39,571 bases of DNA, taken from Snodgrassella alvi SCGC AB-598-O02 (lineage in GTDB: Bacteria > Pseudomonadota > Gammaproteobacteria > Burkholderiales > Neisseriaceae). Positions within the stretch are counted from its first letter, which is position 1, and each line of letters begins with the position of its first letter. The position numbers and the translations under genes are program-made. Under the pieces are notes generated by a model. That model ran no database searches. It worked only from the letters and a program-made list of their open reading frames with translations, and was not told where the DNA came from. Of this stretch, positions 28,207 through 38,703 are shown in pieces. The DNA lies in contig JAIL01000250.1 of the NCBI GenBank assembly GCA_000725195.1, positions 1-39,571 on the forward strand. The letters run 5' to 3'.

Positions 28207-28716
28207 ATGACCGATAAACTTGTATGGTCGACCAGAACCACAGAGAAAACGCGTATATTGGCTCAATGTGAGGCACAGGGTGTAACCATTACTCAATTGC
28301 GTGCACAAGTTTTGGATATCGTGTTGAGTATGAGCGGAGTGATTAAAGCTTATCAGGTCTTGGCTCATATGCAGCAAAGTAGTGGCAACACAATTGCTCC
28401 ACCAACAGCCTATAGGGCATTGGATTTTTGGACAGAACAAGGTATTTTGCATAAAATTCCAGCGATAAATGGCTATATATTATGTCGGCATGCTCAGCAT
28501 GATTGTGGTGAACAATGTCAGCCGGATCATATTCATCACAGTGATTTTGTACTGGTATGTAATCAGTGCGGGGCAGTGGATGAGCAAAGTATGAGCCCAG
28601 AATGGTTAGCTTTGCGGCAAAGGGTAGCTGACAGCGGATTTATACTAAATGACGAACATATTGTTTTGACCGGTATGTGTAGTCAGTGTCGTACCGAAAA
28701 TGAAAATTTACAATAA
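28207..28716 (+). CDS. zur: Fur-family zinc uptake regulator
   Basis: 169-aa metalloregulator. An N-terminal winged helix with PPTAYRALDFWTEQGILHKI (65-84) is followed by a dimerisation domain with two CxxC structural zinc pairs (Cys118/Cys121 and Cys158/Cys161) and a metal-rich loop with Cys93, His95, Cys100, Cys104, His108, His110 and His111. This pattern fits Zur better than Fur or PerR. With zinc bound it would repress zinc uptake genes; no Zur box was found in the window. Confidence 0.85.
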   Translation: MTDKLVWSTRTTEKTRILAQCEAQGVTITQLRAQVLDIVLSMSGVIKAYQVLAHMQQSSGNTIAPPTAYRALDFWTEQGILHKIPAINGYILCRHAQHDCGEQCQPDHIHHSDFVLVCNQCGAVDEQSMSPEWLALRQRVADSGFILNDEHIVLTGMCSQCRTENENLQ

Positions 28717-29137
28717 GTTTTTCATTCAGTTGAAGGGTAAATTTTGAGAACATTATCAATATTATTTATTTGACTTAATCCTATTAAGTCAATAAGCCGT
28801 ATTAATTTTTAATTTATGATTAAATTATTAAAGACAAATTATGAATTGAAATCAGGAGCAGGAAAATAGAGTTTTACGGGAAGATTTACAGGTAGATAAT
28901 AATAAATATACTGAAGAATTATGCATTAATATATCAATGAAACAAGAATATATGTAATTTTTGTCTCCACTGTGTATACAAATAATTATTTTATAAACTA
29001 CTATATTTTTGATTATTAATATAATATATCTATATAACGACTTTTATTTGCAAAAATGGTTTATCATATATTTTATTTACTTTAATGATATTTAATGTTT
29101 AAATAATGTTTGTTTTGGTTAATTTTTAGGTAATGTA
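28717..29137. other. AT-rich spacer before the ketosynthase operon
   Basis: No gene. A perfect 9-bp stem TGACTTAAT / ATTAAGTCA (28771-28779 with 28783-28791) lacks a T tract. The right half is extremely AT-rich with several possible -10 hexamers and must include the promoter of the four-gene operon. AGG at 28128 plus 1000 (29128-29130) is the ribosome-binding site for the GTG start. Confidence 0.4.
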
Positions 29138-30154
29138 GTGCATAATAACCAATTTATTCAACAAGCAAAAAATTTTATTCCCGTTAAAATAATTTCAACA
29201 GGGGCAGCATTACCAGAAGGTAAATTAACCTCTGAAGAGTTAGACAGAAAACTCAACAAACCAAATGGATATTGCCTGAAACGTTCAGGTATCGAATATC
29301 GCTATCATGCGGATTATCAATTAAATCAGGCCGATCTGGCAGCACAAGCGCTTAATGATGCGTTAATCAGAAACGATATATTACCAGAATCTATAGATCT
29401 ACTAATTTGTGCTTCAGCACTGAAAGTTCAAGCTTTGCCTTACACAGCCGCCCATATTCTGGCAGCCAGTACACTACCTGATAAAACAGCTACATTCGAT
29501 GTAAATGTTAGTTGCGTGAGCTTTATTACTGCCTTAAATCTGGCTGCTTGTTTGCTCAATTCAGGCAGTTATAAAAGAATAGCGATAGTGGCAGCTGAAT
29601 TAGCTTCACGTGGTTTGAATTGGGAGGATGAAGAATCTTCACTAATATTTGGTGACGGTGCAGCTTGTGCTATTGTTGAACGAGGAGATGGTCAAAGCGG
29701 TATCCTGTCTTTTTTGCAGGAAACTTATCCGGCAGGGGTGGATTTCTGTCAGATTAAAGCTGGTGGTACCCGACGTAATCTGCGTGCCGGCATGGAAGAT
29801 CACGATTTTCTGTTTCAGATGGATGGTAAGCCCTTATTCAGATTGGCGTCTTCTTTAATAGAAGTATTTATGAGTAAACTGCTGCAATTAAGTGGTTTGC
29901 GACTGGAAGATATTGCTACGGTTGTTCCACATCAGGCCAGTCATCTGTCACTGGAACATATGCGCAAACGTTTAAAAATTGCAAATGAGGCTTTGATTGA
30001 TATATACCGTTTTCGGGGTAATCAAGTGGGTGCTTCTATTCCCAGTGCTTTGCATGAGGCAGTTATTACCAGTCGTTTTCAGGCAAATAATCCGGCAATG
30101 CTTGTTGGGACTGCAGCTGGTTTGACTTTTGCCGGTATGATCGTCCTACCATGA
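29138..30154 (+). CDS. FabH/OleA-like beta-ketoacyl synthase III family enzyme
   Basis: 338-aa thiolase-superfamily condensing enzyme. The catalytic triad is Cys126 (VNVSCVSF), His265 (VVPHQASH) and Asn295 (FRGNQVGAS); the His-Asn spacing of 30 equals FabH. FGDGAACAIVE (171-181) is a family signature. It starts with GTG, with AGG at 29128-29130 as ribosome-binding site; no in-frame ATG competes. Being first in a cluster with an SDR, an MBL hydrolase and an adenylating enzyme, it more likely condenses acyl chains for a specialised product (as OleA does) than initiates fatty acid synthesis. Its substrate is unknown. It overlaps the next gene by 4 bp. Confidence 0.82.
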   Translation: MHNNQFIQQAKNFIPVKIISTGAALPEGKLTSEELDRKLNKPNGYCLKRSGIEYRYHADYQLNQADLAAQALNDALIRNDILPESIDLLICASALKVQALPYTAAHILAASTLPDKTATFDVNVSCVSFITALNLAACLLNSGSYKRIAIVAAELASRGLNWEDEESSLIFGDGAACAIVERGDGQSGILSFLQETYPAGVDFCQIKAGGTRRNLRAGMEDHDFLFQMDGKPLFRLASSLIEVFMSKLLQLSGLRLEDIATVVPHQASHLSLEHMRKRLKIANEALIDIYRFRGNQVGASIPSALHEAVITSRFQANNPAMLVGTAAGLTFAGMIVLP

Positions 30155-31182
30155 AATTTCTGGTAACTGGTGCCACCAGTGGCTTGGGTAGGAATGCAAC
30201 AGAATGGCTATTAAAGGCAGGTTATCAGGTTTGTGCGACTGGACGAAATCTACAGGCCGGTGAAGAGCTGAGTAAACTTGGTGCTCAATTTACTGCCCTT
30301 GATCTGGTCACCGCTTCGGATAAGGCATATCAGCAATTGATGTCTGATTGTGATGTTATTTGGCATTGTGCCGCACTATCCTCACCCTGGGGCAAATATC
30401 AGGATTTTTATCAGGTGAATGTAGTCGTGACTCAACGTTTGGCACAGTTGGCAGGAAAATTGGGAATCAAGCGTTTTGTACATGTTTCTACTCCATCTTT
30501 GTATTTCGATTTTCAGTCGCATCTGAATATTCCGGAACAGCAACTTGCCAAAAGATTTGCTAATAATTATGCCAAAACCAAATATCTGGCAGAAGAAGTC
30601 ATTCGACAAAGTATCAGCTTATATCCGCAAACGATTTATATTATGCTCAGACCACGAGGTATTTTCGGACCGTATGATCGAGTGCTGATTACCCGGGTTC
30701 TGGATTTGATTGCCAGGACCAAAGGAACGCTGCCATTGCCAGGTGCAGGTAAGGCTTTTATTGATCTGACATTCGTTTTGAATGTGGTACATGCTATGTT
30801 TCTGGCTTCTACCAGGCAACAATTACATTCTGGAGAAGTATTTAATATTACTAATCAGCAGCCAAAGCCGTTGCATGAAATGTTAACTATGTTAATAAAA
30901 GAAAAACTACAAATAGATTTTTCGGTTCGAGCTTTGCCATATTTTGTATTATACGGCTTAGCCTTTATTAATGAATGGTTAGCGAAGATAACTCACAAGG
31001 AGCCGGCTTTAACCCGCTATAGTGTCGGTACGCTATATTTTGATATGACGTTAAATCCTGATCTAGCTAGTAAACGGCTTGGATATAAACCAATTTATAG
31101 TCTGGAAGAGGGCATAGATATCACTGCTGAGTGGTTGTTACACAATGGAAATCTGCCGTATGGCAAAACTAACCACATTTGA
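30151..31182 (+). CDS. Extended SDR: NAD-dependent epimerase/dehydratase, OleD-like
   Basis: 343-aa Rossmann enzyme of the 3-beta-HSD / extended SDR group. The cofactor motif is TGATSGLG (6-13), with catalytic Tyr140-x-x-x-Lys144 (NNYAKTK) and Ser/Thr at 113-114 (HVSTPSLYF). LRPRGIFGPYD and the C-terminal LGYKPIYSLEEGI are typical of extended SDRs. By analogy with OleD it may reduce a 2-alkyl-3-ketoacid made by the preceding ketosynthase; this is inference. It overlaps the ketosynthase gene by 4 bp and the next gene by 23 bp. Confidence 0.8.
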   Translation: MKFLVTGATSGLGRNATEWLLKAGYQVCATGRNLQAGEELSKLGAQFTALDLVTASDKAYQQLMSDCDVIWHCAALSSPWGKYQDFYQVNVVVTQRLAQLAGKLGIKRFVHVSTPSLYFDFQSHLNIPEQQLAKRFANNYAKTKYLAEEVIRQSISLYPQTIYIMLRPRGIFGPYDRVLITRVLDLIARTKGTLPLPGAGKAFIDLTFVLNVVHAMFLASTRQQLHSGEVFNITNQQPKPLHEMLTMLIKEKLQIDFSVRALPYFVLYGLAFINEWLAKITHKEPALTRYSVGTLYFDMTLNPDLASKRLGYKPIYSLEEGIDITAEWLLHNGNLPYGKTNHI

Positions 31183-31966
31183 AGCAGGCTATTGTACTCA
31201 TTTAGCTTGTATGGCACAAAAAGGAGCGGGATTCCATATTTGTAAATTTCCAGCGCGGGCATGGCTGATTGAGGTGGGGAATAAACGCTGGCTTTGGGAT
31301 ACGGGCTATGCCGATTATTTTTATCAAAGTACTCAAAGTGGCATATTTAAACTTTATCGTAAATTAACGCCGGTATATTTACAAGAACAGGAAGCACTCA
31401 AAGGACAATTTCTTTCTTTGGGGATCGAATTAAGCAGTATTGATGGTGTTATTCTTTCGCATTTTCATGGTGATCATATTGCCGGTATTCGTGATTTTTC
31501 GTGCAGTCATTTTATCTGTAGTGGTGAGGGCTGGAAGAAATTACGCACACTACGTGGTTTTAAAGCATTGAAGCAAGGGTTTGTACCCGAATTGATGCCT
31601 GAGGATTTTGAAGAACGGCTTATTTTTCTGGAAAGTTTTGAAGAAACACCATTACCTCAGGAGCTGTGGCCCTTTACGGTAGGATATGTTTTACCAGAAA
31701 GTCAAAAACAAGTTTTAATTGTTCCTTTGCCCGGTCATGCCTGTGGTCACATTGGTGCATTCGTGCAAACTGATCATGGCTGGACTTTACTGGCCAGTGA
31801 TGCCGCCTGGACACCGGCCAATTATCTACAACTGCAAGGTCCATCAAAACTCGCTCATTTGGTGATGGAAAGTCCACTTCTTTACTATCAGACATTACAG
31901 AAATTGCATCAATTGGCGCGTAATCCGCAGATAACAATCTGCTTAAGTCATGAAGGCTATTTATGA
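31160..31966 (+). CDS. Metallo-beta-lactamase-fold hydrolase, lactonase type
   Basis: 268 aa. The two-zinc site is complete: His101-x-His103-x-Asp105-His106 (LSHFHGDHIAG), His193 (PLPGHACGHIG), Asp214 (ASDAAW) and a C-terminal His264 (LSHEGYL). The overall order resembles AHL lactonases such as AiiA/AttM. ATG 31160 (MAKLTTFEAGY) is preferred; ATG 31145 would add five residues. It overlaps the SDR gene by 23 bp and the next by 4 bp. Probable cytoplasmic hydrolase of a lactone or thioester intermediate made by its operon partners; quorum quenching is the other option. Confidence 0.8.
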   Translation: MAKLTTFEAGYCTHLACMAQKGAGFHICKFPARAWLIEVGNKRWLWDTGYADYFYQSTQSGIFKLYRKLTPVYLQEQEALKGQFLSLGIELSSIDGVILSHFHGDHIAGIRDFSCSHFICSGEGWKKLRTLRGFKALKQGFVPELMPEDFEERLIFLESFEETPLPQELWPFTVGYVLPESQKQVLIVPLPGHACGHIGAFVQTDHGWTLLASDAAWTPANYLQLQGPSKLAHLVMESPLLYYQTLQKLHQLARNPQITICLSHEGYL

Positions 31967-33252
31967 ATTCACTCAAGGTGCTTTGGCATTACTGGAAAAC
32001 CAAAAGTCTGACATTTGCCAATCGCGATCAGTTACAGCTTTATCAGCAACAGCAAATCAGCAAATTCAGGCATAAAATTCTCAGCCATAGCCCGTATTTT
32101 AAACGTTTTGCCGATCTGCCTTTCGATCAATGGCCCCTAATGAATAAAGAAATTATGATGCGCCATTTTGATGAAATGAATACTGCTCACTTAAAATTGG
32201 AAACCTTATTAGACTGTGCCCGCAAAAGTGAACAATCAAAAGATTTTTCTCCTAAAATAGGTCAATATAGTGTGGGCTTATCATCGGGAACTTCAGGTAG
32301 TCGTGGATTATTTGTGGTGAGCCCTCGAGAACAGCAAATATGGGCTGGAGTAATGCTGGCTAAAATGCTACCGAGGGGTTTGCTGGCGCGCGAACGAGTA
32401 GCGTTATTCTTACGGGCTGATAATCATCTTTATCATAGTGTTGATACTCGATGGCTGAGTCTGAGGTTTTATGGTCTATTTGCAAATTTTCAGCAGCAAC
32501 TGCAGCAACTGCAGGAATTTCAACCAACAATTATTATTGCACCAGCACAGGTTTTATGCGTATTAGCACAGGAAAAACAAAAAGGTATTATCAGGATTAA
32601 CCCAGATCTGGTTATTTCGGCTGCGGAAGTATTAGATCACCATGACCGTTCCCAATTAGAAAAAGTATTTACTGAAGTTGGCGAAGTGTATCAGGCTACT
32701 GAAGGATTTTTGGGTTCTACCTGTTCGCATGGCGTTTTACATCTGAACGAAGAATTTATTTTCGTCGAACCACAATGGCTGGACGAGAATCGCTTTGTGC
32801 CGATTATTACCGATTTTACCCGTGAAACTCAACCCGTTGTACGCTACCGACTGGATGATATTTTGGTGAGACGCAAGGAACCTTGTTTATGTGGTCGACA
32901 AGGTATGGCGATAGCCCGTATTGAAGGGCGGCATGACGATCAGATAATGCTATTAAATCATCTGGGTCAGCCACTAACCATATTTTCTGATTATTGCAGC
33001 CGGATTATTGCCAATCATATACCCCTAAATAGTGATTATCGCTTAATACAGAAAGCTTCAGGAGAATTTGAACTAATAGCCTGCTGTGCTTTATCTGATT
33101 TACAGTCTTGTTGTTTAGCTTTGGAAGAACATTTTTTGCAACAGGGTGCCAATATTGAAGATTTAAAATGGATTCTTAAGCCGGTTGAATCCATTCCATT
33201 ATCTTTTATGCATAAGAAAAGGCGAATTATTCATGAAAAAATGATTAATTAA
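31963..33252 (+). CDS. F390-synthetase-related adenylate-forming enzyme (PaaK-like)
   Basis: 429-aa member of the ANL superfamily in the PaaK / CoF-synthetase branch. The phosphate loop is SSGTSGSRG (107-115), followed by YQATEG (243-248), RYRLDD (294-299), a CxC motif CLCGR and RIEGRHDD (319-326). A Lys/Arg-rich KKRRI near the C-terminus may hold the adenylation Lys. Such enzymes activate a carboxylate as acyl-AMP and pass it to CoA or another acceptor. It ends the operon. OleC, which closes beta-lactones in olefin synthesis, is also an ANL enzyme, but this protein belongs to a different branch, so the parallel is functional only. Confidence 0.75.
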   Translation: MNSLKVLWHYWKTKSLTFANRDQLQLYQQQQISKFRHKILSHSPYFKRFADLPFDQWPLMNKEIMMRHFDEMNTAHLKLETLLDCARKSEQSKDFSPKIGQYSVGLSSGTSGSRGLFVVSPREQQIWAGVMLAKMLPRGLLARERVALFLRADNHLYHSVDTRWLSLRFYGLFANFQQQLQQLQEFQPTIIIAPAQVLCVLAQEKQKGIIRINPDLVISAAEVLDHHDRSQLEKVFTEVGEVYQATEGFLGSTCSHGVLHLNEEFIFVEPQWLDENRFVPIITDFTRETQPVVRYRLDDILVRRKEPCLCGRQGMAIARIEGRHDDQIMLLNHLGQPLTIFSDYCSRIIANHIPLNSDYRLIQKASGEFELIACCALSDLQSCCLALEEHFLQQGANIEDLKWILKPVESIPLSFMHKKRRIIHEKMIN

Positions 33253-33708
33253 ATAACATTATTACCTATACATCCTTATGGGTTTAGTGGTTTAAACTAT
33301 CCATCATAGTATTTTATAATAGTGGATGAAAACCTATAAAAACAAAATTTTATTGTTATAGCAAACATCTTGCTAATGAAAAAAGTTGTGTACAAGCAAT
33401 GATAAAGCAAAACAAATATAGGTTGCATTAGATTGTTGCGTTAGAAATGATTTCCATTATTAATGGTATTAAATCCTGCAATAAGTAATTAGGATTCAGG
33501 ATAATAAGGTTTTATCCGATTATAAGTTAGCTTTTAAAATAATATTCGACCAAGCTTTTTTATGACAAATAAAATTAGAATATTTGATATAGAGTAAAAT
33601 ATCTAATTTTAGTTAAATTAATTTAATTATTTAATTTACTTATTTATTTGTTTATATATTATCATGTAAAAAAATCTAAATATATTAAATTAAGAAAGGA
33701 ATTCAATC
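33253..33708. other. AT-rich spacer between the four-gene operon and the GFA gene
   Basis: No gene. An imperfect hairpin after the operon (about 33298-33327, ATCCA / TGGAT ends) has no T run, so no clear terminator is seen. CCATTA / TAATGG forms a palindrome at 33454-33466. From about 33600 to 33665 the sequence is nearly pure A/T. Confidence 0.4.
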
Positions 33709-34131
33709 ATGATATCAGGCAATTGTTTATGTGGAGAAGTTGTTTATCAGTTAAATAGTGATATTAATACAATTGTGTTCTGTCACTGCTCAAGATGTCG
33801 CAAGCAAACTGGAACAGCATTCAATTCATCCGCAATAATTAAAAAGAAAGATTTCACATTCATTAAAGGCGAAACAAATGTAAAAATCTATGCCAAAGAT
33901 GGCGTTAATCGCCATTTTTGTTCAAATTGTGGCTCACATATTTTTTCTGTTCGGGATAATGATCGTAATACTTACCGCTTACGTATCGGACTTATTAATG
34001 AACCAATTATGACAGAAAATCGTATACATATTTATACCGATTCAAAAGCAAATTGGGATAATATTTGCGATGGATATACTCAATACCCTGACTCTATAAA
34101 CCCGTCTGATTTAACCTCTAATAATAGTTAA
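33709..34131 (+). CDS. GFA (glutathione-dependent formaldehyde-activating) family zinc protein
   Basis: 140-aa small zinc protein. Cysteines are arranged as in the GFA/CENP-V fold: Cys6 and Cys8 (GNCLCGEVVY), Cys25, Cys27 and Cys30 (FCHCSRCRKQTG), Cys71 and Cys74 (HFCSNCGSHIF). Some members bind glutathione-formaldehyde adducts; most have no proven function. AAAGGA is a good ribosome-binding site 10 bp before ATG 33709. A monocistronic gene between two long AT-rich spacers, with more A/T-rich codons than its neighbours, which hints at separate acquisition. Confidence 0.85.
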   Translation: MISGNCLCGEVVYQLNSDINTIVFCHCSRCRKQTGTAFNSSAIIKKKDFTFIKGETNVKIYAKDGVNRHFCSNCGSHIFSVRDNDRNTYRLRIGLINEPIMTENRIHIYTDSKANWDNICDGYTQYPDSINPSDLTSNNS

Positions 34132-34290
34132 GTATCGTTCAAATTTAACTTAGAATTTTGATGAAATTAAAAATGTTAGTTAGTTAAATTGGTGATATTT
34201 TGGCAATCCAATCTCAAAACAGTTACAAATCATTGAATGATCAAAATTGATTTATATATTACACTGCGTTTTTTCAAAAAAAGCATCAAA

Positions 34291-34363
34291 GCCTCCTTAG
34301 CTCAGATGGATGGAGCAACGACCTTCTAATTTTCAAGTCACAGGTTTTAACACTGCAGGAGAT
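34291..34363 (+). pseudogene. Decayed tRNA-Arg (anticodon TCT)
   Basis: The 5' half matches a tRNA-Arg(UCU): acceptor GCCTCCT, TA, D-arm GCTC...GAGC and the anticodon stem-loop ACGAC-CTTCTAA with anticodon TCT. The 3' half is broken: the anticodon stem partner reads TTTTC instead of GTCGT-like, the T-loop reads TTTTAAC instead of TTCGAAT, and the acceptor end no longer pairs fully. It cannot fold as a normal tRNA. tRNA-Arg(UCU) genes are common integration sites, so this may mark a former element or a decayed duplicate. Confidence 0.7.
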
Positions 34364-34951
34364 TCAATTATCAAGTTTAAGAAAGCTCAAATAAATTCTA
34401 TAACTATTATTTAATCTGGTTCTGAACAATCGCTGTATCATGGTGGTTAGCAGGGAATGTAGATTAATTTATAACAGTTAATATTTTACCAATCATGATA
34501 TTAGAAACAAAAAAATACATTAACCCTCCCTATCATCTTTATGTTGGTTAATATTTATGCTGATGAAATATTATTGAAATGAATTTAAAAGCAAAATATT
34601 AATTGGTTTAATATTATCTTCAATTTAAATTCTGGGCATTATGCTTTGTGGTTATTAAGGGGACTAGAAATTTTATATTAAGCCTAAGTTTATCAAAACT
34701 ATAGTTTAAATTTATTTGCTTTAATTCCAGTCTTATATATCTATATTTGTTGTCATTGCCTGAGATTTTTGCTTTTTCTGGCAGCATCGTTTTATGACAT
34801 ATTTTTGTTTTTATAGGCCGTTCATTTAATTCATTATTAGGGTGAAAATTTTAATTTTGCGCATGGACGTTTGTAGCATGCTTTTAATATAACGCTCAAT
34901 TAGCATCTAAAACATAGCTGGCTTGAATATTGGCTGAGCGGATTGAATTAG

Positions 34952-35104
34952 CACTTAACTCATTATTTATATCTGTGTGCTAGTCACCGACATGATTATA
35001 AATTAATTTCTATTGTGGCGGATATAGCACAGCAATTTAAAATTACGTATCAGGCTCTATCCTTAATAGATATGTTTAAACCCCAACAGAAATTTGTGAA
35101 GTAA
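34952..35104 (+). pseudogene. Probable relic of an Rrf2-family (NsrR-like) regulator
   Basis: Fifty codons are open without a start. They read HLTHYLYLCASHRHD, then ISIVADIAQQFKITYQALS, which resembles the N-terminal winged helix of Rrf2 proteins (LTxYTDYxLRxLxYLA... IADIAxxFxISxxHLxKV), with about nine residues lost after LTHY. A later frame (EVNEKQLAGKLVV) stops at 35143-35145. The family call rests on recalled patterns only. Confidence 0.3.
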
Positions 35105-35304
35105 ATGAGAAGCAATTAGCGGGAAAATTAGTGGTAATCTGAGCTGTTAACACTTTCACTCTAACTAAAATAAATTCGCATCTGTCCATGCTTTCAAACA
35201 AGATCAAAAGTTCAGTTAATATTGTGGAAAAGAGAATAATTTGCCAGTCGGCTATGTTACGGTTATAAAGAACATAGTTGAGGATAAAAATTCGGGAATA
35301 ACTG

Positions 35305-36108
35305 ATGCAGGATGTAAAAGTAGCTATAGTGCAAATGGTTTCTGGCACTCAGGTAGCAGAAAATGTACGCACAATGCAACAACTGGTGCAACAGGCAGCT
35401 GCTGAGGGTTCAAAATGGATAATATTGCCTGAATACTGGCCAATCTTAGGACAGAATGATCAAGATAAAGTGGCCGTAGCTGAAAAATTTGGAGATGGAC
35501 CATTACAATCTGTCTTGCGTGAGTTAGCGGCTAATTTAGGTATTGTGCTCTTTGCCGGAACAATACCATTGCAAAGTACGGATCATTCCAAAATATTGAA
35601 TACAATGATGGTTTATGGGCCAAGCGGCGAACTGCTCAGTTTCTATCATAAAATGCATTTATTTGGTTTTAACTCTGGGCAAGAATCTTATGCTGAAGCC
35701 AATACTATTATGCGTGGTCTGGATGTTCCTGAGCTGAAAATTAACCATACCGCTGTGGCTCAGGGTATTTGTTATGATTTACGTTTTCCTGAATTTTTCC
35801 GTGCGCAACTACCTTTTGAAATTATGGTCTTACCCGCAGCTTTTACTTATACCACCGGTAAGGCGCATTGGAATACTTTATTGATTGCTCGTGCTATCGA
35901 AAATCAGTGTTATGTATTGGCAGCAGCTCAGGGCGGTATTCATCAAAATGGCCGACGTACATATGGACATAGCATGATTATCAATCCTTGGGGTGAAATT
36001 CTGCAATGTCTACCTGAAGGTGAGGGCATCATTACGGCAACATTAGATGGTTCGTTACTGGATTCGGTTCGCAGCAAATTACCGGCACTGAATCATCGTA
36101 TTCTGTAG
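35305..36108 (+). CDS. Nitrilase-family amidohydrolase (Nit1 / deaminated-glutathione amidase type)
   Basis: 267-aa carbon-nitrogen hydrolase. The catalytic triad is Glu43 (LPEYW), Lys116 (YHKMHLF) and Cys156 (QGICYDLRFPE), with the Nit1/YbeM-like patterns HLFGF and GHSMIINPWGEI. The closest known role is metabolite repair by hydrolysing deaminated glutathione; omega-amidase (Nit2) activity is the alternative. No strong ribosome-binding site is visible. It stands alone, followed by a weak hairpin TTAGAC / GTCTAA at 36148-36164. Confidence 0.85.
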   Translation: MQDVKVAIVQMVSGTQVAENVRTMQQLVQQAAAEGSKWIILPEYWPILGQNDQDKVAVAEKFGDGPLQSVLRELAANLGIVLFAGTIPLQSTDHSKILNTMMVYGPSGELLSFYHKMHLFGFNSGQESYAEANTIMRGLDVPELKINHTAVAQGICYDLRFPEFFRAQLPFEIMVLPAAFTYTTGKAHWNTLLIARAIENQCYVLAAAQGGIHQNGRRTYGHSMIINPWGEILQCLPEGEGIITATLDGSLLDSVRSKLPALNHRIL

Positions 36109-36318
36109 TCATCAGTACTTCTTCTTATATGAGCAAATTAATTTATTTTAGACTTATTGTCTAATTTATGATTTAAACGACATTTTTTAGACAAAATATA
36201 AATCATTTCTTGTCCATTACAGTAAATCATGGCATGATTGTCAACTTAATTTTAACTTTATAAAGTTTTTACAAATGAATTATTGTAATCAAATCAAAAC
36301 TGGTTATAGGGGGCAACT

Positions 36319-37686
36319 ATGAGTAATAGCGGAACAATGAAAAAATCGCACTCGCAGTGGAGCTCTCGTATGGGCTTTATGCTGGCTGCTGCTGGTTCTG
36401 CAGTCGGTCTGGGTAATATCTGGAAATTTCCTTATATGGCCGGACAAATGGGGGGGTCTGTCTTTGTATTAACTTATCTGGTTTGTATGTTTGTCATCGG
36501 ATTGCCAATTCTGGTAACAGAATGGTTAATTGGCCGGCGTGGACAGAAAAATCCGATTCATACTATGGAAGATGTTGCTCAAGCTGAAGGACATTCCGCA
36601 AACTGGCGATGGGTAGGTATTATTGGCGTGTTGGGTTCTTTTTTGATCCTCTCTTTCTATAGTGTGATAGGTGGCTGGGCAACTGACTATATTTTTCTCG
36701 CCGGTAAAGGTACCTTTCTGGGTATGAATGGTGAGGGTACGAATAGAATATTCAGTGAATTTTTAGGCAGTGTGAACCATTTGCTCATCTGGCATACGGT
36801 GTTTATGTTTGCTACTGCGGTAATCGTTGCCATGGGCGTAAGCGGTGGACTGGAACGCTCTTGTAAAATCATGATGCCGGGTTTAGGTTTGTTGCTTATC
36901 GGACTTGTGGTTTATGCAGCTGTGGTTAGTGGTCCGGCATTTGGACAGGCATTTTCTTTTCTGTTTACGCCTAACTGGTCGGCATTAACCGGTGAAGCAG
37001 TACTGGCTGCATTAGGACATGCGTTTTTCAGTTTGTCGCTGGGTATGGGGATCATGATGGCGTATGGTTCGTATCTGGGAAAAGATGTTAATCTGATTTC
37101 AACAGCACGTACTGTAGTTATCCTGGACGTAATTGTGGCTATTTTATCGGGTTTGGTTATTTTTCCATTGGTTTTCGCTAATGGTTTACAACCAGGTAAA
37201 GGAGCTGGCTTGATTTTTGTTACTCTGCCGATTGCTTTTGGTAATATGACAGGTGGTACCATTCTGGGTGTATTATTCTTCATTTTCCTGACTTTTGCCG
37301 CATTAACATCATCTATATCTTTGCTTGAGCCAACTGTAGAATTGCTTGAAGAAAAAACACCTTTAGGGCGAAAATCAGCAACCTTACTGAGCAGTGTCGT
37401 TATATGGGCGCTGGGTGTTGCTTGCGTATTGTCATTTAATGAATGGCAAAATGTGACCTTGTTCGGTAAAAATATCTTTGATTTGTTGGATTATTTTACC
37501 AGTAAGTTGATGCTGCCATTAACTGGTTTGGGTACGATTATTTTTGCTGGCTGGATGATGCATCAGGAAACCATTCGTCGGGAATTAAATCTAAGCCCGA
37601 CCTTATTTGCCGGCTGGAAATTTTTATGTCGTATTGTCATCCCTATTGCGGTAATATTCATTCTGATCTATGGATTTATGGATTAA
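36319..37686 (+). CDS. Sodium-dependent transporter, NSS (LeuT) family
   Basis: 455-aa inner-membrane symporter with about 11 hydrophobic helices, the number usual for many bacterial NSS proteins. The unwound TM1 region GSAVGLGNIWKFPYMAGQMGG carries the sodium and substrate backbone sites, and TM6-TM8 segments (HAFFSLSLGMGIMMAYGSYL, LTFAALTSSISLLEP) are well conserved. Likely substrates are amino acids such as Trp, Tyr or branched-chain types; which one cannot be read. GGGGG before ATG 36319 is a strong ribosome-binding site. A clear terminator follows. Confidence 0.92.
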   Translation: MSNSGTMKKSHSQWSSRMGFMLAAAGSAVGLGNIWKFPYMAGQMGGSVFVLTYLVCMFVIGLPILVTEWLIGRRGQKNPIHTMEDVAQAEGHSANWRWVGIIGVLGSFLILSFYSVIGGWATDYIFLAGKGTFLGMNGEGTNRIFSEFLGSVNHLLIWHTVFMFATAVIVAMGVSGGLERSCKIMMPGLGLLLIGLVVYAAVVSGPAFGQAFSFLFTPNWSALTGEAVLAALGHAFFSLSLGMGIMMAYGSYLGKDVNLISTARTVVILDVIVAILSGLVIFPLVFANGLQPGKGAGLIFVTLPIAFGNMTGGTILGVLFFIFLTFAALTSSISLLEPTVELLEEKTPLGRKSATLLSSVVIWALGVACVLSFNEWQNVTLFGKNIFDLLDYFTSKLMLPLTGLGTIIFAGWMMHQETIRRELNLSPTLFAGWKFLCRIVIPIAVIFILIYGFMD

Positions 37687-37707
37687 AATTCCATATGGAT
37701 TGTTAAT

Positions 37708-37740
37708 AAAAATAGCACTGATTTGATCAGTGCTATTTTT
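37708..37740. terminator. Bidirectional terminator after the NSS transporter gene
   Basis: Perfect 14-bp stem AAAAATAGCACTGA / TCAGTGCTATTTTT (37708-37721 with 37727-37740) with a 5-nt loop. The A and T flanks let it act for the transporter and for the converging yafJ. Confidence 0.92.
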
Positions 37741-37860
37741 ATTTGGCATTTAAAACAATATTACTTTACAGTAAGGCAAATAAATCCCGCACATGTAAAG
37801 TATATGGTTAGTTATAACAAAAAACTAATTATTTGCCAGACTGTCAGAAATTAAACAAGT

Positions 37861-38703
37861 TTACATTTGTACGCCGGCCTGACGGGCTATGATTAAACCT
37901 TGTTCAATACTCATAAATTGTGCGGGCTTTGTGCAATCACGCATAACAATTTCACCTTGTCTAAACATAACCAGCTCTTTAACGGCCAATTGTTCCCATT
38001 TTTCATTACAGGTTAGAGGCAAAGTTGTAATGACTGCAACACGATCGAATGGTGTGGTAACGGCAGAAAAATCTATGGATACATCTTCATCAACCAAGGC
38101 AGCTTCCCCAAAAGGAGCCTGCCTGATAATGTAAAAAAGTAAAGTGCTAGCGTGTGCTATTAACCAGTCACCATTTGATAGCATATAGTTAAACAACCCA
38201 TATTGACGAAGTTCGTGGGTAATTTCTGTTATTACTGCAAACAATTCTTTATCTTCAGGTTTATAGCGAAAACGCTGACGTAGTTGCTCCAGCAAATAGC
38301 AAAAAGCTGCTTCTGAATCTGTCGTACCGACAGGATTAAAAAATTCACCGCTGTTTATATTAAAATTTCGCAAGTTACCATTATGAGCAAATACCCAGTA
38401 TTCCCCCCAGATTTCCCTGACGAAGGGATGGGTATTAACCAAATGTACTTGTCCCTGTGTTGCTTTACGAATATGAGCAATGACGTTTTCAGATTTAATT
38501 TGATATTTCTGCACCAGATCTGCAACAGGAGAATGGGCGCAAGGCTTATCATCCTGCAATAAACGTACACCGTGCCCCTCAAAAAAGGCAATACCAAAAC
38601 CATCTGCATGACTATCAGTCAAACCACCACGCAAACGAAAACCTTCAAATGAAAATACAATATCGGTTGGGGTATTGCAATTCATGCCTAGCAACTGGCA
38701 CAT
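37861..38703 (-). CDS. yafJ: Class II glutamine amidotransferase, YafJ type
   Basis: 280-aa Ntn-hydrolase-fold protein. The nucleophile is Cys2, exposed after removal of Met1 (MCQLLGMNCNTPTDI). Glutaminase-domain motifs HIRKATQG, NTHPF, FAHNGNL and PVGTTDSEAAFCYLL are intact. It has no partner synthase domain, and YafJ proteins have no established reaction. TATGGAG lies 9 bases before the ATG on the minus strand. It is about 25 residues longer than E. coli YafJ at the C-terminus. Convergent with the NSS gene. Confidence 0.9.
   Translation of the reverse strand: MCQLLGMNCNTPTDIVFSFEGFRLRGGLTDSHADGFGIAFFEGHGVRLLQDDKPCAHSPVADLVQKYQIKSENVIAHIRKATQGQVHLVNTHPFVREIWGEYWVFAHNGNLRNFNINSGEFFNPVGTTDSEAAFCYLLEQLRQRFRYKPEDKELFAVITEITHELRQYGLFNYMLSNGDWLIAHASTLLFYIIRQAPFGEAALVDEDVSIDFSAVTTPFDRVAVITTLPLTCNEKWEQLAVKELVMFRQGEIVMRDCTKPAQFMSIEQGLIIARQAGVQM

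Follow-up and report, generated by a model that had tools for sequence, protein, structure and literature searches.

Several described systems resemble the locus reported here. The Pqs operon encodes a ketosynthase (KS), a metallo-beta-lactamase-fold (MBL) hydrolase and an adenylate-forming enzyme (ANL), namely PqsD, PqsE and PqsA, and is not known to contain a short-chain dehydrogenase/reductase (SDR), while OleC, the adenylate-forming enzyme of the OleABCD olefin/beta-lactone pathway, belongs to the AMP-binding family. The pyrone-forming ketosynthases MxnB and CorB are not known to have a partner set of SDR, MBL and ANL enzymes. Here we describe a four-gene operon encoding a KS, an SDR, an MBL-fold hydrolase and an ANL enzyme at positions 29138-33252 of a 39,571-nucleotide stretch from Snodgrassella alvi SCGC AB-598-O02 (contig JAIL01000250.1, positions 1 to 39,571, forward strand), which as a whole is called the window and belongs to an assembly (G000) of 1.6 Mb in 259 contigs, 60.8% complete. 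The four genes are one conserved set, which could well be, though we hold this tentatively, the core of a pathway that spreads horizontally, spans several phyla and leads to a fatty-acid-derived metabolite or lipid, with a chemistry that we infer. To our knowledge the core has no known product, and the family name of its ANL enzyme is a placeholder. The core consists of these genes:

29138..30154, + strand: ketosynthase (ketosynthase III, MxnB/CorB-like) with a GTG start and the triad C126-H265-N295; from the open reading frame (ORF), family scans, alignment and fold
30151..31182, + strand: extended SDR (OleD/3beta-HSD-like) with S113-Y140-K144; from the ORF, family scans and alignment
31160..31966, + strand: MBL-fold hydrolase with the fold of acyl-homoserine lactone (AHL) lactonases and 4-pyridoxolactonase and a full dizinc ligand set; the longest ORF runs from 31145
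31963..33252, + strand: adenylate-forming enzyme (ANL), TIGR02304 F390 synthetase-related, PaaK branch; from the ORF and family scans

All four frames are open on the plus strand from 29138 to 33252 in the ORF list. Though the longest MBL frame starts at 31145, the Met at 31160 (residue 6) is shared by all 45 aligned rows, the window's among them, which makes 31160 the better start. With this start, the overlaps within the core are 4, 23 and 4 bp, as an initial annotation of this DNA had stated.

A scan with the ANL alignment, in one genome per species, gave at least 586 relatives at tblastn E 1e-3, where a relative is a match to the ANL query and not a proven TIGR02304 member, and the best 80 of them were examined. 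Together with the window, 8 of 59 matching plasmid records and 16 further genome stretches, these make 105 loci. Removal of the duplicates L126, L128, L129 and L134 left 101 loci, 97 of which have ≥3.3 kb 5′ of the ANL gene, and a gene was counted as present at tblastn E 1e-5 within 9 kb. The full four-gene set was found in 92 of the 97 loci, with the order KS-SDR-MBL-ANL in 91, two of which carry an ATP-grasp gene inserted after the KS gene; the sole other order, SDR-MBL-ANL-KS, was that of the Fusobacterium locus L035. All core genes lie on one strand, and among the 90 loci with four full-length genes a 4 bp overlap joins the KS and SDR genes in 79 and the MBL and ANL genes in 58. Since the same order recurs in 91 of the 97 loci, the association of the genes goes beyond chance. 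The initial annotation had asked whether the genes would rarely co-occur, and the opposite was observed, in loci picked by best ANL match, so that the counts are weighted toward close kin. The pairwise distances of the four core proteins correlate with r = 0.91-0.95 (90 loci), so that gene swapping is not indicated, although common ancestry by itself would give high values too. The five exceptions to the full set are L104, L109 and L111, with no KS match, L034, with ANL and ATP-grasp genes only, and L130, in which the core is broken. In L109 and L111, the place that the KS gene takes in kin is filled by a desaturase gene, which shares 4 bp with the SDR gene.

The set occurs in Pseudomonadota, Bacillota and Fusobacterium. 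Across the window's phylum the TIGR02304 family is patchy: 7 of 398 genomes, one of them the window's own, score over the cut-off (four of the matches, L117-L120, were covered with their short flanks); in the window's genus it was found in 5 of 14 genomes, again including its own, with one broken copy in addition. The conserved core is present in a locus that has a match in 672 of the 5,426 complete Escherichia coli genomes, including the probiotic Nissle 1917 (matched with the seven-gene stretch of strain KE48, 671 times at ≥80% coverage), as well as in the bee gut, where several Snodgrassella loci and two Gilliamella loci carry it. The arrangement in the Nissle 1917 chromosome is narGHJI - KS-SDR-MBL-ANL-PAP2-hydroxylase-desaturase - tRNA-Tyr - purU. 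On two Rhodobacterales plasmids, TetR and sulfotransferase genes lie directly upstream of the core.

A tree of the four proteins covers 66 of the 90 loci, 24 near relatives having been set aside, and was built by a quick method, with Shimodaira-Hasegawa approximate likelihood ratio test (SH-aLRT) supports only. The window, L037 and the locus of the same-genus genome G005 (L053) form a fully supported group, whose sister is a fully supported group of the two Gilliamella loci, from an isolate and a metagenome bin, and the same-genus genome G003, and both sit within a mostly Enterobacterales clade. The G003 locus (L127), whose MBL is 94% identical to that of L039, is nested inside the Gilliamella group with a support of 89, and this nesting suggests that the locus passed between bee-gut bacteria belonging to different classes. 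Elsewhere in the tree are further loci of Neisseriaceae (L115, L133-L135) and that of S. alvi WF3-3, the latter adjoining Serratia sp. H1w with a support of 100; all four proteins of the locus in the same-genus genome G009 are identical to those of WF3-3 (L082/L129). The plain reading is that the window's genus made several acquisitions, together with transfer between bee-gut lineages.

By family scans, the KS is a FabH-type ketosynthase III (PF08545/PF08541), with PRK07204 as the best NCBIfam model at 314.7 bits against a cut-off of 402. The phmmer ranking was led by MxnB (8e-45, 156 bits), followed by CorB (4e-40, 141 bits), Aquifex FabH (2e-39, 138 bits), PqsD (2e-18) and OleA (1e-9, 41 bits). 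An AlphaFold model made with 45 aligned rows (predicted local distance difference test, pLDDT, 91) gave template modelling (TM) scores of 0.91-0.92 for MxnB, 0.90 for CorB, 0.83-0.88 for FabH, 0.85-0.87 for PqsD and 0.81-0.83 for OleA. Identity to MxnB/CorB is 30-32%, and a Q-A-[VL]-P stretch is common to the three in the alignment. The triad Cys126, His265 and Asn295 named at the outset is indeed present; 96 of 98 rows conserve it and two have gaps. E105 of PpyS, the counterpart of OleA E117, corresponds to V94 in MxnB and CorB (Kresovic et al. 2015, PMC4578411, in excerpt). With the equivalence set through MxnB Val94 of that excerpt and the KS alignment, this place is L100 in the window KS, occupied by Leu in 89, Ile in 7 and a gap in 2 of 98 rows, while the alignments show Phe in Aquifex and Burkholderia FabHs and Val in MxnB/CorB. 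The catalytic Glu of OleA, which reaches across the dimer and for which the initial annotation had proposed a check, is thus absent from all 96 ungapped rows. Its description of the KS as FabH/OleA-like stood in the FabH part, but the OleA-like part was rejected on account of the missing Glu and the closer sequence and fold of MxnB/CorB and FabH. The KS is nearest to the MxnB/CorB two-chain type, with a small sequence margin over FabH (CorB 141 bits, Aquifex FabH 138 bits). In MxnB, two tunnels converge at the catalytic Cys (PMC5724707, in excerpt).

The best NCBIfam models for the SDR are OleD types, which agrees with the extended, OleD-like SDR recognised earlier, at scores of 144 and 142 bits that lie far under the cut-off of 580. 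Its best PDB sequence match is sterol-4alpha-carboxylate 3-dehydrogenase; OleD and this enzyme both act on alpha-branched beta-oxy acids. The MBL assignment was confirmed by family scans and by fold. Its model (pLDDT 93) has AHL lactonases and 4-pyridoxolactonase as the best folds, with TM scores of 0.69-0.77 and identities of 16-21% over the first 26 matches. Each of the seven dizinc ligands (HxHxDH plus His, Asp and His) is found in 100-101 of 101 rows, the rest being gaps. The protein is below all NCBIfam cut-offs (AiiA model 39.8 bits against 375; 4-pyridoxolactonase 55 against 325), and W222, which may occupy the place of the catalytic Tyr194 of AiiA, is Trp in 99, Tyr in 1 and a gap in 1 of 101 rows. 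The ANL enzyme had been placed in the PaaK/F390 branch, and it is a TIGR02304 member at 549.8 bits against a cut-off of 251.9 (model name aden_form_hyp). It has no Pfam match at E 0.001 and matches solved phenylacetate-CoA ligases weakly, and the alignment revealed conserved adenylation motifs together with a CxC pair and a C-terminal Lys. We know of no tested function for the 'F390 synthetase-related protein' family.

The conserved four-gene core upholds the earlier proposal of a set with the enzyme types to carry out condensation, reduction and hydrolysis and to activate an acid. In the four steps that we infer, the KS would load an acyl chain on C126 from the cell's own acyl-ACP (acyl carrier protein) or acyl-CoA and join it to a second acyl thioester, probably a beta-ketoacyl one, as MxnB and CorB do and without an OleA-type Glu base. 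The SDR would then reduce the resulting (2-alkyl-)3-keto group, the dizinc MBL would hydrolyse a lactone or thioester to the free acid, and the ANL enzyme would adenylate this acid and transfer it to an acceptor, CoA or another. Scanning 104 loci with a motif for ACP-like genes gave three matches, none of which was ACP-like by eye, so the cell's own carrier protein or CoA would be used. In kin, membrane desaturases, hydroxylase and PAP2 phosphatase, or glycosyltransferases, or an ATP-grasp ligase may decorate the product, which in the window strain, having no hydroxylase and desaturase at the locus, would be less decorated.

Genes for PAP2 (PF14378), hydroxylase (PF04116) and/or desaturase (PF00487) stand beside the core in 62 of the 87 loci with downstream room; all three are present in 53, hydroxylase and desaturase in two (one being the window, by way of its remnant), PAP2 with one of the others in three and PAP2 alone in four. 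The 87 loci split into 59 with genes of this group, three with the same and a GT21 enzyme, eight with GT21 without them, eight with an ATP-grasp enzyme and nine with none. The GT21 enzyme (HpnI-like) of 11 loci is accompanied by a GT1 enzyme in nine, and the ATP-grasp enzyme of eight loci is PRK06849-like. Adjoining the GT21 gene in L089 (16191-16733) and L035 (4217-4846) are genes for proteins of about 180-210 aa that have no Pfam match and look alike by eye, and these may be one family without a Pfam match. More speculatively, and in our view improbably, the core would build a new class of bacterial two-chain lipid, in which acyl chains are fused head to head, reduced, released and re-activated, and in which each lineage would vary the head group and tails with a module of its own: PAP2, hydroxylase and desaturases; GT21 (HpnI-like, of the ceramide-glucosyltransferase type) and GT1; ATP-grasp ligases; or a neighbouring sulfotransferase. 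This would be a sphingolipid-like amphiphile made without the pyridoxal phosphate (PLP) enzyme, its genes being passed on by transfer between bacteria of the bee gut and others. If this were true, roughly every eighth complete E. coli genome would encode a two-chain lipid.

Around the core, the window contains the following features:

28207..28716, + strand: flanking zur-like regulator, edge of a variable insertion site; family scan
33709..34131, + strand: gene of the GFA family (PF04828), downstream of the ANL gene and upstream of the remnant; Pfam
34514..34861, + strand: fatty-acid hydroxylase ('sterol desaturase') gene, remnant of its start, interrupted by stops; translated match
34844..35125, + strand: acyl-CoA desaturase gene, remnant of its end, interrupted by stops; translated match
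35305..36108, + strand: flanking nitrilase-family (deaminated glutathione amidase-like) gene, other edge of the site; family scan

The sister genome G001 (L037) is 95% (KS), 93% (SDR), 96% (MBL) and 96% (ANL) identical to the window in the core proteins, and its hydroxylase and desaturase genes are on another contig (L149). L149 68-807 corresponds to window 34123-34857 (84% DNA identity) and L149 2425-6276 to window 34854-38703 (94%), and about 1.6 kb of L149 is absent from the window, with the break at about 34854-34857, which is why the two remnants are adjacent. Within 34514-35125, the hydroxylase start is recognisable at 61% identity over 117 aa and the desaturase end at 71% over 94 aa, both interrupted by stops. 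An assembly artefact is an unlikely cause, since the left part has diverged to 84% DNA identity and stops lie in the remnant's own frame apart from the deletion. A family search of G000 gave no match to PF04116 or PF00487, in an assembly whose incompleteness (60.8% complete, 259 contigs) allows for copies elsewhere. The GFA-family gene is not thought to be part of the pathway, and it was not found in the corresponding gap between ANL gene and remnant in G005.

The ratios of nonsynonymous to synonymous substitution (dN/dS) against G001 are 0.15 (KS), 0.22 (SDR), 0.11 (MBL) and 0.13 (ANL), similar to 0.10 for zur and 0.13 for the nitrilase-family gene in the flanks; against G005 the core gave 0.06-0.11, but with saturated dS (1.3-2.3). 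The core looks to be under purifying selection, and since its dN/dS is low and the remnant is broken, it appears to be kept while the tail decays. The window is thereby a natural experiment in which tailoring genes were lost and the core is still open.

The window copy lies between the zur and nitrilase-family genes (28717-35304). The distance between these two genes ranges from about 0.1 kb (G011) to 7.4 kb (G006) in nine other genomes of the genus, and the G003 and G009 operons lie elsewhere, so the site is a variable one with differing insertions. Named by eye, the G006 site (L168 2841-9101) carries an open hydroxylase-desaturase pair together with tetracycline-efflux-like and TetR-like genes and transposase-like ORFs of the IS200/IS605 type. 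G006 gave no TIGR02304 match, and there was no core gene among the ORFs listed at its zur-nitrilase site. The broken core copy of G008 (L130 8048-9491) has KS, SDR and ANL fragments with stops, and no MBL was found in it. A repeat scan of the flanks yielded nothing useful.

Several points weigh against the proposed pathway. We know of no substrate or product, and no assay of any core enzyme was found in the open-access literature. The KS is only 32% identical to MxnB, Aquifex FabH scores near CorB (138 against 141 bits) and the TM scores of FabH and PqsD reach 0.83-0.88, which leaves room for one-chain chemistry of the FabH type. No KS match was found anywhere in the roughly 21 kb of L104, L109 and L111, so the KS may not be needed or may come from another place. 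Thioesters rather than lactones could be the substrates of the MBL, and the dN/dS values are simple counts without error bars, with saturated dS in the comparison with G005.

One-chain FabH-type chemistry is the strongest rival, and we regard it as possible though unlikely. The KS would join an acyl (or branched or aryl) starter to malonyl-ACP, the SDR would yield a 3-hydroxyacyl product, the MBL would free the 3-hydroxy acid and the ANL enzyme would re-activate it for head-group attachment. This would suit Aquifex FabH as the third-best PDB sequence (2e-39), the FabH TM scores of 0.83-0.88 and the TIGR00747 fabH model, which matches all 45 scanned rows; the Cys-His-Asn (CHN) triad, too, suits decarboxylative condensation (PMC5724707, in excerpt). 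However, the nearest relatives by sequence and fold are MxnB/CorB, every beta-ketoacyl-ACP synthase III model is below its cut-off for the window KS, and the Leu/Ile of the KS rows at the L100 place differs from the Phe of the Aquifex and Burkholderia FabHs and from the Val of MxnB/CorB.

A Pqs-like signal pathway, in which the ANL enzyme would activate an aryl acid, the KS would add an acyl group and the MBL would act like the PqsE thioesterase, seems to us distinctly improbable. Though the same trio of classes is present, PqsD is close in fold (TM 0.85-0.87) and the ANL enzyme shows a weak relationship to phenylacetate-CoA ligases, the 50 best MBL fold matches listed are led by lactonases and do not include PqsE, and PqsD is further off by sequence (2e-18). 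An SDR, which is not known from Pqs, is present here, and the frequent neighbours are fatty-acid hydroxylase and desaturases.

That the locus in this strain is decaying baggage that makes nothing seems very unlikely. In its favour are the broken hydroxylase and desaturase of the window, the broken core of G008 and the hydroxylase-desaturase pair that G006 keeps at the site with no TIGR02304 match; against it, all four core frames are open in the window with dN/dS of 0.11-0.22 against G001, and core-only loci exist elsewhere (9 of 87). Least probable of all is an OleABCD olefin/beta-lactone variant with the MBL replacing OleB, for which the OleD-like SDR and a similar gene logic speak, since the catalytic Glu is absent in 96 of 98 KS rows (two gaps), the KS is nearer to MxnB/CorB and FabH, the ANL enzyme has no Pfam match at E 0.001 where OleC is an AMP-binding enzyme, and no alpha/beta hydrolase was recognised in the conserved core.

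We found no description of the cluster in the literature, and as the search covered open-access PMC papers only, this is weak evidence of absence. In a different lipid gene cluster, an 'F390 synthetase' may serve glycerol attachment, by the hypothesis of its authors (PMC2649909, in excerpt). Two further reports, taken from excerpts, were given no weight, since their proteins may belong to another family than TIGR02304: a 'Coenzyme F390 synthetase' insertion is among 91 reduced-virulence mutants of a kiwifruit pathogen (PMC9823363), and a 'coenzyme F390 synthetase' perhaps acts in phenol degradation in Acinetobacter, which would favour an aryl role (PMC5501837). Malleicyprol was set aside as a parallel, the chain fusion there being made by a condensation domain (PMC12304814, in excerpt).

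The proposed pathway for a fatty-acid-derived metabolite or lipid can be compared with known systems part by part. The window ANL enzyme is a member of the TIGR02304 family, to which this analysis adds the operon context. AHL lactonases and 4-pyridoxolactonase are the best fold and sequence matches of the MBL and share its seven metal ligands, but the MBL is only 16-21% identical to them and under their cut-offs. PqsABCDE shares the ketosynthase III, MBL and ANL classes, while the window set differs by its SDR and its lipid-tailoring neighbours. OleABCD likewise unites a ketosynthase III, an OleD-like SDR and an ANL enzyme in one cluster, and the initially noted resemblance to an olefin/beta-lactone pathway holds in these classes, with the SDR scoring far under the OleD cut-off; it fails in the OleA Glu, the AMP-binding OleC and the alpha/beta hydrolase OleB, none of which the window set has, its ANL enzyme being of another branch and its MBL of lactonase fold. 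The set is therefore not an Ole member, though it may work partly like Ole. MxnB and CorB, the ketosynthases of myxopyronin and corallopyronin, are like the window KS in sequence, fold, CHN triad and an aliphatic residue at the Glu place, but they join carrier-bound chains at the ends of polyketide synthase (PKS) lines (PMC5724707, in excerpt), and no PKS was recognised at the window locus.

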